From a virus, in IMG/VR virus record IMGVR_UViG_3300036985_000056, positions 1-22,450 of that record: DNA of 22,450 nt; one strand, written 5' to 3'. The notes beneath the pieces were generated by a model. The model was not told where the DNA came from and ran no database searches. It saw only the letters and a program-made list of their open reading frames with translations. Positions 2,737 to 5,056 of this stretch are shown here, piece after piece (position 1 is the stretch's first letter; each line of letters begins with the position of its first letter). Made by a program: the position numbers and the translations under genes.

Positions 2737-2984
2737 GCGATGGGTGGGAATCGCTATCTCCGGCTTTAAACGCTCGAGCTGCGCCGGATGATCTGGATTT
2801 CATTTACGGGAAACTGTTCAAGTCGCCCGAAGGCCAGAAGGTTCTGGCGCATATGCGATCGATAACGATCGAGCAGCCCGTTTTCGTCCCGGGCGAAGAT
2901 CCCAGCTATGGCTATTGCCGGGCTGGGATGTGCGAATTGGTTCGCATGATCGAGCGGCGAGTGGAGAAGAGCAACAATGTCTGA
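2733..2984 (+). CDS. Bbp19-like phage protein
   Basis: This gene encodes 83 residues. Its ATG 2733 overlaps the portal stop (ATGA), with AGGAGG a few bases upstream inside the portal gene. The pattern YGKLFKSPEGQKVLAHMR, then QPVFVPGEDPSYGYCRAG and a final MIERRVE helix, is that of the small family named after Bordetella phage Bbp19: a short helix, a conserved proline turn, and an Arg-rich last helix. Genes of this type regularly lie between portal and scaffold in podophages of this kind. The function is unknown; a role in head assembly is inferred from position only. Overlapping starts on both sides suggest coupled translation with the portal and the scaffold. Confidence 0.75.
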   Translation: MSDGWESLSPALNARAAPDDLDFIYGKLFKSPEGQKVLAHMRSITIEQPVFVPGEDPSYGYCRAGMCELVRMIERRVEKSNNV

Positions 2985-3726
2985 AGCGCAAATGGATGAA
3001 GGCCCGCTGGTAAAGCTGAGCGGCCAACCTGAAGCCACGGCGCAAGGGGATCAGTCGATCCCTCTGCATGATGAACCGAAACCCGCCACAGCTCCGGCGG
3101 AAAATCTATCCCGGCCGGACGGCTTCCCGGCAAAGTTCTGGACCGACAAAGGCCCGGATGTCGATAAGCTGGCTAAAAGCTATTCCGAGCTGGAAAAGCA
3201 GTTCAAGTCTGGCAAGCACAAAGCCCCGGATGAGGACTATGATCTGACGGCCTTGGTGGACAAGGGCGTTGCGGAAGATGATCCGATGCTGTCCACGTTT
3301 AAGGGCTGGGCCAAAGAGGCTGGCATCAGCCAAGCGGCGTTTGAGGATATCGTCGGCAAGATTACCGATATCACCGGGAAGCAAGTCGAGTCGTTTGAGA
3401 TCGATCGCAAGGCCGAAATGGCAAAGCTTGGCGAGCGCGGCCGCGAAAAGATTGAGATGGTCGAGCGCCACATTATGAAGCTCGGGTTGTCGAACGAAGA
3501 GCGCGACGCAATAGCGTCTGGCTTGGACAATGCCTCCTCGATCAACGCAATGGTGAAGATGATCCAGTCTTTCACAAACGAAAACCTACCCGTCGCCCCG
3601 GCGGTAAACACGCCAGCGATGACCCGGGCCGACCTCGAGGCCGCGATGATGGATCCGCGCTATGGCAAAGATCGGGTCTACACTGACGGCGTTACATCGA
3701 AGTGGATGAAGTCGCAAAACGTCTAA
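2977..3726 (+). CDS. Capsid assembly scaffolding protein, gp9-like
   Basis: This gene encodes 249 residues and overlaps the Bbp19-like gene by eight bases; a GGAG lies upstream of ATG 2977. Residues 1-45 are acidic and disordered-looking. Residues 47-90 hold the common scaffold motif DGFPAKFWTDKG followed by KSYSELEKQFKSGKHKAPDE. The middle is helical and charged. The C-terminus has MMDPRYGKDRVYTDGV, which matches the conserved end of this class, the part thought to contact the coat protein. Scaffold guides major capsid protein into proheads and leaves before DNA packaging. Its place directly before the capsid gene supports the call. Confidence 0.85.
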   Translation: MSEAQMDEGPLVKLSGQPEATAQGDQSIPLHDEPKPATAPAENLSRPDGFPAKFWTDKGPDVDKLAKSYSELEKQFKSGKHKAPDEDYDLTALVDKGVAEDDPMLSTFKGWAKEAGISQAAFEDIVGKITDITGKQVESFEIDRKAEMAKLGERGREKIEMVERHIMKLGLSNEERDAIASGLDNASSINAMVKMIQSFTNENLPVAPAVNTPAMTRADLEAAMMDPRYGKDRVYTDGVTSKWMKSQNV

Positions 3727-3729
3727 CTG

Positions 3730-3758
3730 TTTACAGAGCTATCGCTTGCGTGTATCTT
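3730..3758 (+). promoter_or_regulatory. Candidate sigma70-type promoter before the capsid gene
   Basis: TTTACA (3730-3735) and TATCTT (3753-3758) are separated by exactly 17 bases. They match the bacterial -35 and -10 consensus at 5/6 and 4/6 positions. The site lies just after the scaffold stop in the only long gene-free stretch, ahead of the most highly expressed product expected here. A transcript from it would start near 3765. The -10 overlaps the left arm of the stem at 3743-3834. There is no further support such as a repeated copy in the window. Confidence 0.4.
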
Positions 3759-3834
3759 GGCCGAGATGGATAACCCTTGTGGCCCTTCTATGCAGTAAGT
3801 CCTGCTGGCCCGGCGCGGCCAAAACACGCAAGCG
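3743..3834 (+). other. Long imperfect stem-loop in the scaffold-capsid gap
   Basis: Eleven bases at 3743-3753 (CGCTTGCGTGT) are perfectly complementary to 3824-3834. After a small internal loop (three bases against one), TTGGCCG at 3757-3763 pairs with CGGCCAA at 3816-3822. This makes about 18 base pairs. Inside, GGCC 3781-3784 can pair with GGCC 3807-3810, and GCAG 3792-3795 with CTGC 3802-3805 around a six-base loop. The folded unit is 92 bases and ends 61 bases before the capsid start. No T run follows, so it is not a simple intrinsic terminator. T7 has RNase III-cut hairpins between genes, so a processing or mRNA-stability element is possible. The rest of the gap (3835-3882) shows nothing I can name; AGGAG at 3883-3887 serves the capsid gene. 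Confidence 0.6.
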
Positions 3835-3895
3835 AACCGCCCGATTTCGGATAACGGATCGCGTCTAGTTTGAAACTCATATAGGAGATTCTGCT

Positions 3896-4729
3896 ATGGC
3901 GCAGAACGTCACAACGGCGTTTGTTGACCTCTTCGAATCCGAGGTTAAGCAAGCGTATCAAGCTGAGTCGGTGTTGCGCGGCACGACCCGCACCCGCACT
4001 GGTGTTCAAGGCAACACTGTCAAGTTCCCAAAGATCGGTAAAGGCGTTGCAACTTTGCGCGTTGCCCAAACCGATGTAACCCCGCTGAACGTCACTTACG
4101 CTACAGTGTCGGCCAGCATGACCGACTATATCGCTGCTGAATACTCGGACATCTTCCACCAGTCGCACATCAACTTTGATGAGCGCCGGGAGCTGGTCCA
4201 AGTGGTTTCGAAGTCGATTGCTCGTCGTTGCGATCAGATCATCATCGATGCTCTGGCTGCTGCTTCTGGCGCTTCGACTGTTGCAACCAGCATCGGCGGC
4301 GCTTCTTCCAACATGAACATCGAAAAGATCCGCGCTGCGGCCAAAAACATGAACACCAAAAATGTTCCTGCTGAAAACCGCTATATGCTGGTCCATGCTT
4401 CGCAGCTCGATGCCATGCTTGGTGCGACCGCAATCACTTCCTCGGACTTCGCCGTCGTTAAGGCGCTGGTTCGCGGTGAAGTGAACCAGTTCATGGGCTT
4501 CAACTTCATCACGATCGGTGATCGCGACGAGGGTGGCCTGCCTAAGCCGTCCACCCGGACTTGCTTTGCTTGGCACATGGACGCCGTTGGCTACGCTGAA
4601 TCGATGGCGCAAAAGACCGAAGTGAACTATATCCCCGAGAAGACCAGCTACTTGGTTTCCTCGATGTTCTCGGCGGGCGCGATTTCCATCGATGACGAAG
4701 GCGTTGTCGCAATTTCCTGCACCGAATAA
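3896..4729 (+). CDS. Major capsid protein
   Basis: This gene encodes 277 residues, shorter than T7 gp10A (about 345), with AGGAG at 3883-3887, eight bases before the ATG. The sequence reads as an HK97-fold coat protein of the podophage type. It has an N-terminal FVDLFESEVKQAYQAESVLRG, then VKFPKIGKG and an extended E-loop-like strand, the spine-helix segment FDERRELVQVVSKSIARRCDQ, and a P-domain and A-domain part with RYMLVHASQLDAML. The C-terminus is FSAGAISIDDEGVV, typical of this class. It forms the icosahedral shell around the scaffold. It has its own leader (see the promoter and stem-loop upstream) and is followed 16 bases later by a small gene and then a terminator, so this two-gene unit can be expressed at higher level than its neighbours. 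Confidence 0.92.
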   Translation: MAQNVTTAFVDLFESEVKQAYQAESVLRGTTRTRTGVQGNTVKFPKIGKGVATLRVAQTDVTPLNVTYATVSASMTDYIAAEYSDIFHQSHINFDERRELVQVVSKSIARRCDQIIIDALAAASGASTVATSIGGASSNMNIEKIRAAAKNMNTKNVPAENRYMLVHASQLDAMLGATAITSSDFAVVKALVRGEVNQFMGFNFITIGDRDEGGLPKPSTRTCFAWHMDAVGYAESMAQKTEVNYIPEKTSYLVSSMFSAGAISIDDEGVVAISCTE

Positions 4730-5031: not shown

Positions 5032-5056
5032 TGGGGCGGCTTCGGTCGCCCCATTT
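5032..5056 (+). terminator. Rho-independent terminator with UUCG loop after the capsid genes
   Basis: TGGGGCGGC (5032-5040) pairs with GTCGCCCCA (5045-5053) as nine pairs, including one G-T wobble, closed by a C(TTCG)G tetraloop. TTT and then CCT follow, a weak T run, so read-through into the tail genes is likely. It begins eight bases after the stop of the small post-capsid gene. Confidence 0.8.

Follow-up and report, generated by a model that had tools for sequence, protein, structure and literature searches.

Hairpins at the 5′ end protect mRNAs in bacteria, and the T7 gene 10 leader protects its mRNA. A second described leader is putL of phage HK022, located just past its promoter; about 70 nt long, paired from +3, and made of two stem-loops, it needs no other factor to act on RNA polymerase (PMC9378689). 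The locus analyzed here precedes the capsid gene in IMGVR_UViG_3300036985_000056, a 22,450-base virus record with T7-like virion genes, the whole of which we call the window. The preliminary description of this DNA had placed a promoter-like element and a long hairpin in the gap before the capsid gene. On comparison with relatives, the conserved structure is a 99-nt leader running from the predicted transcription start, and not that hairpin. The genes and signals of the region are as follows.

In the window, head-tail connector gene (PF12236).
2977-3726, scaffold gene (PF05396).
3730-3758, plus strand, sigma70-like promoter TTTACA-17-TATCTT (−35 at 3730-3735, −10 at 3753-3758; 9 of 12 consensus matches).
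3883-3888, plus strand, ribosome-binding-like AGGAG, assigned from its sequence, kept in the gaps of relatives and outside the folded leader.
3896-4729, plus strand, major capsid protein gene (277 aa; PF19821, E = 7.4e-74; phrog_3437).

The window also encodes tail proteins, including tail tubular A beyond the capsid gene. Its scaffold-capsid gap is 169 nt. A megablast of the window against phages gave no match, and 80 IMG/VR contigs with close capsid relatives were aligned over this gap. From these we built a covariance model of the leader form found in the window (type 1, model R1), with the window itself kept out of the sequences used; a second model (R2) represents a type-2 form described below. 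The window carries the features that define both types, namely hairpins P1/P2 and P5/P6 with mirrored loops, P3, P4, and a pseudoknot.

3765-3863, plus strand, conserved capsid leader RNA of type 1, 99 nt (R1, E = 3.2e-14, 62.5 bits; R2, E = 3.5e-4, 23.8 bits).
3765-3788, plus strand, hairpin A (P1, 3765-3769 with 3784-3788; loop AUAA, 3770-3773, opposite C3783; P2, 3774-3775 with 3781-3782).
3792-3805, plus strand, hairpin P3 (GCAG-UAAGUC-CUGC), all four pairs of which show two-sided changes across relatives.
3806-3829, plus strand, H-type pseudoknot (UGG, 3806-3808, with CCA, 3819-3821; P4, 3813-3817 with 3825-3829).
3832-3862, plus strand, hairpin B (P5, 3832-3839 with 3855-3862; P6, 3841-3843 with 3848-3850; C3840 opposite AUAA, 3851-3854).

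Hairpins A and B carry the same asymmetric loop, 5′-GG-NNNA-Y / R-C-CC, in mirror orientation. In the window, P1 has one U-U mismatch and P4 one C-A mismatch. Five P4 pairs show two-sided changes across relatives, and the UGG/CCA pairing of the pseudoknot is formed in 95.7% of cells, with a two-sided change from G-C to A-U in two distinct sequences.

Support for this fold came from two alignments. In 14 diverse type-1 leaders aligned with MAFFT, and so not fitted to the structure, 14 pairs had two-sided changes in 40 cells, compared to a shuffled mean of 8.6 and with none of 500 shuffles as good. RNAalifold, run independently, returned the same helices. Among 39 distinct type-1 leaders, in an alignment made by the model and thereby fitted to the structure, 93.3% of cells were paired and 17 pairs had two-sided changes in 121 cells (shuffled mean, 29; 0 of 500 shuffles), and sliding the partners by 1 to 3 columns lowered pairing to 33 to 42%. 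Because MAFFT misplaced P5 by one base when given all type-1 leaders, the models were built from a consistent subset, to which the remaining leaders were then aligned by model.

The long hairpin of the preliminary description is formed by an inverted repeat that we found to be exact over 12 nt per arm, TCGCTTGCGTGT and ACACGCAAGCGA, with further inner pairs. Scanning the 22-kb window, we found it to be the longest perfect inverted repeat with arms no more than 120 nt apart.

3742-3753, plus strand, left arm of this hairpin, within the promoter spacer and outside the local transcript, with no covariation with the right arm.
3824-3835, plus strand, right arm of this hairpin, which the conserved fold divides into the P4 3′ strand, AA, and the P5 5′ strand.

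A covariation search had been suggested for the outer stem. In 31 type-1 leaders, the arms of the same phage paired at 8.74 of 14 positions and arms swapped between phages at 8.63 (P = 0.17). This permutation rules out the outer hairpin as a conserved structure, and it gives no support to the candidate RNase III processing hairpin, for which compensatory change in the long outer stem had been looked for. The outer arm is missing in about half of the type-1 lineages, and on these alignments the stem is explained by sequence conserved within each arm for other reasons. The suggested comparison of folding energy with shuffled sequence gave a split answer. The read-through RNA from 3730 to 3834 has a folding energy of −40.9 kcal/mol (z = −3.13), which 3 of 200 shuffles matched or bettered, whereas the local RNA from 3765 to 3865 is unremarkable (z = +0.09), and because of this last value a minimum-energy test would miss the conserved leader. 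Folding energy alone misleads here, since the read-through segment stands out and the true leader does not.

The promoter part of the preliminary description fared better. Its −10-like box at 3753-3758 does overlap the left arm, by one base, and the box belongs to the consensus match in the gap. Matches to the promoter consensus are equally frequent by chance in the region around 3730-3758; the window's promoter stands above chance because its position relative to the leader RNA is fixed in relatives. Measured from the end of the best promoter-like pair to the GG of P1, the distance was 7 to 12 nt in 25 type-1 lineages (mostly 9 to 10; median, 9) and mostly 8 to 9 nt in 41 type-2 lineages (median, 8), with three outliers (14, 19, and 19) among the 66; over all of them the −10 box nearly always fell 7 to 11 nt ahead of P1. 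With the usual start about 7 nt after the −10 box, P1 would begin at about +1, which places the 5′ end of the predicted local transcript inside the fold. For the window, the predicted start is about 3764-3766, in keeping with the earlier proposal that transcripts beginning near 3765 would lack the left arm. Ahead of this start, the gap is far more variable among relatives, promoter-like hexamers excepted.

As judged from sequence, the capsid unit is read by the host RNA polymerase. A T7-type single-subunit RNA polymerase (PF00940) was absent from the records of 14 relatives, which may be fragments, while the T7 positive control matched; on this count we set aside a T7-type cassette read by a phage-encoded enzyme. 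For the Methylophilales (OM43) phage MEP301, whose capsid is 58% identical to that of the window, the authors of the genome report no RNA polymerase gene (PMC8024684). In two metagenome-assembled contigs, L289 and L290, hairpins resembling intrinsic terminators with T runs were read by eye about 45 to 100 nt upstream of the leader, overlapping or abutting the capsid promoter. These hairpins look as though they end the upstream operon and are consistent with a separate capsid unit.

The preliminary description had proposed a switch in which RNA read through from upstream is folded into the long hairpin or cleaved by RNase III, and the local transcript, lacking that structure, is left open to high capsid translation. 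It was right that a structured RNA lies ahead of the capsid gene, and the long hairpin exists. However, the local transcript is not free, as a conserved fold with strong covariation occupies its extreme 5′ end. That read-through RNA can fold differently held in part: in 17 of 30 type-1 lineages, which are related to one another, shuffling the upstream sequence made it less stable, but the outer arm shows no covariation and is absent as often as noted above. We consider this switch very improbable.

Another kind of upstream complementarity was seen in the MEP301 subclade. There, an inverted repeat spans the −10 box, and its pairing with the P1 5′ strand is kept while the sequence changes (P ≤ 0.005 in most members). 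In ten loci, changes in the left arm of the −10 repeat go along with changes in the P1 5′ strand and in its 5′ flank. In three loci, the promoter spacer is complementary to parts of the leader other than those in the window (UGG with the 5′ strand of P4; the 3′ side of P5). The complementarity in type 1 and in the MEP301 subclade would make read-through RNA misfold the leader. Because the promoter DNA of several lineages thus encodes a strand complementary to a portion of the leader, we considered that the leader is gated by the start site, acting on the host polymerase in the manner of put, or on the mRNA, only when made from its own promoter. Compared to shuffled upstream sequence, the probability of the native helices showed no overall effect (P = 0.08 for type 1 and 0.81 for type 2), so the case for start-site gating stays weak and we regard it as decidedly unlikely.

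The leader fold was found ahead of the capsid gene in well over a hundred other phage sequences, mostly marine or freshwater. MEP301 and its capsid relatives carry the second form, type 2, at the same place, with 15 two-sided pairs in 11 sequences and 21 such pairs in 183 cells in 38 sequences. R1 matched several type-2 leaders (E down to 2e-7) and R2 matched type-1 leaders (E down to 1.7e-9), which makes the two types one superfamily. Linkage was examined with patterns of the leader's 3′ half that were derived from capsid neighbors but searched regardless of neighbors, and so could match elsewhere. The type-1 pattern lay 36 to 41 nt upstream of a capsid gene on the same strand in 119 of 120 stretches, the remaining one being at a contig end. 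For type 2, 114 of 120 stretches preceded a capsid gene; of the other six, five stood no farther than about 142 nt from the end of a contig, and the last was an alignment-start artifact. Each of ten longer type-1 records held exactly one copy.

Leader matches also occurred in metagenome-assembled contigs L291, assigned to a Hyphomicrobiales bin, and L289, assigned to an Opitutae bin; these bins may be wrong. The former (JAIXTP010000026.1; 186,520 bases) encodes a capsid relative with a leader and is a possible prophage or a misbinned phage. A record named “Dunaliella viridis virus SI2” (NC_023841) lists a green alga as host. However, the virus belongs to Caudoviricetes by classification and shares 44% capsid identity with the window, and its true host is probably a bacterium. 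Vibrio phage CKB-S2 has a minimal form with the two loop-bearing hairpins only, and L290 looks the same by eye, although its predicted fold shows the first hairpin only. The covariance models found no match in HTVC010P-type pelagiphages, most Vibrio phages, T7, or HK022. In four phages with related capsids and no leader (a pelagiphage, the others Vibrio phages), a short hairpin lies close to where the capsid transcript would be expected to begin; the simple hairpins of the leader-less Vibrio phages fold no better than shuffles. No Rfam 15 family matched the window or any of nine relatives' loci of both types, MEP301 included, at E values up to 10 or 1.

At the other end of the cassette, one small gene follows the capsid gene, and a hairpin stands ahead of tail tubular A.

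5032-5053, plus strand, terminator-like hairpin TGGGGCGGC-TTCG-GTCGCCCCA with a weak T tail.

In the 500 nt that follow the capsid stop, a hairpin with a T tail was present in 36 of 50 type-1 loci, against 3.4 expected, and in 31 of 59 type-2 loci, against 2.3 expected; the T tail in the window is too weak for this filter. In relatives, terminator-like hairpins, several of them capped by UUCG or GAAA loops, occupy the position of T7 Tphi about 300 to 400 nt past the capsid stop.

A terminator-like hairpin downstream of the leader is what a put-like RNA could act upon. The put RNA of HK022 binds the zinc-binding domain of the RNA polymerase beta-prime subunit and suppresses termination. Such a leader would bind the host RNA polymerase that made it, so that pauses and terminators are ignored and the tail and late genes, about 17 kb past the capsid terminator, are transcribed. 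The leader shares with putL its place, a similar size, and a two-hairpin core in a phage that is host transcribed; there is no excess of promoter-like sites farther along the window, and the conserved internal loops suggest a binding partner. Set against this, neither R1 nor R2 matches HK022 (NC_002166), the leader was found before capsid genes only and in one copy per record, and antitermination just ahead of the capsid terminator would undo the short cassette. We think a put-like action, the main rival to the reading favored below, possible but on balance doubtful.

The twin loops could instead be an operator, bound by a protein of phage or host origin (capsid, scaffold, or ribosomal) that would adjust capsid translation or stability. 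One conserved internal loop is present twice, mirrored, and is kept in the minimal form of CKB-S2 and, by eye, in L290; the linkage to the capsid gene is strict. However, the leader stops about 20 nt ahead of the ribosome site, and we know of no HK97-fold capsid protein that regulates its own mRNA. An operator is, in our estimate, unlikely, and both it and the put-like action stay live because twin loops call for a partner. A trans-acting or packaging RNA derived from the leader would fit a compact, pseudoknotted, and conserved element, but no terminator separates it from the capsid gene, and the constant spacing of 36 to 41 nt to the capsid start points to action in cis. We consider this reading highly unlikely.

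Comparison among relatives shows that the fold is conserved, that it is locked to the predicted start and stands strictly ahead of the capsid gene, and that a terminator-like hairpin follows the cassette. The reading we favor, with a confidence just short of an even bet, is a 5′-terminal leader that raises the yield of capsid mRNA through 5′-end protection and insulation. We favor protection because the leader is locked to +1 and stops before the ribosome site, and because hairpins occupy the corresponding position in T7 and Vibrio phages. Host RNA polymerase would start at the sigma70-type promoter, giving a dedicated capsid transcription start in the gap, and the first 99 nt or so of the transcript would fold into the compact leader. 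The paired first bases may shield the mRNA from decay that starts at the 5′ end. Since the leader in the window ends about 20 nt upstream of the ribosome-binding site, it would leave that site unhidden, and it may hold it apart from upstream sequence. The expected result is an excess of capsid protein, of which the phage requires hundreds of copies. A plain stabilizer would have no need of a pseudoknot or of two identical, conserved internal loops, and the mechanism may be more specific than stabilization; the two loops probably have a protein partner or stack against one another.

Taken together, we believe that this is a large and well-supported class of structured RNA, absent from Rfam, in widespread aquatic T7-like phages without their own RNA polymerase. 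We found no paper describing it, in a literature covered in part, so that a prior account outside Rfam is possible. The leader marks the capsid transcription start in unannotated genomes and offers a model-based marker for these phages, and MEP301 with its OM43 host is a cultured pair that carries it. It also poses the question of how a T7-like capsid yield is obtained with the host polymerase alone.

Of the known systems, T7 shares the order of scaffold, promoter, capsid, terminator, and tail tubular A (phi10, gene 10, and Tphi being taken from the T7 annotation), a match here of consensus and synteny only. The T7 phi10 transcript likewise begins with a perfect 8-bp hairpin at +1 (z = −3.0). 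T7 combines its own RNA polymerase with that simple 8-bp hairpin, whereas here a host-type promoter is combined with a pseudoknotted, twin-loop leader of about 99 nt. HK022 putL is alike in being a cis RNA at the start of a phage operon that the host transcribes, with pairing that begins at about +1 to +3 and a two-hairpin core (PMC9378689). It differs in that put serves early operons, while the leader described here precedes only the capsid gene.
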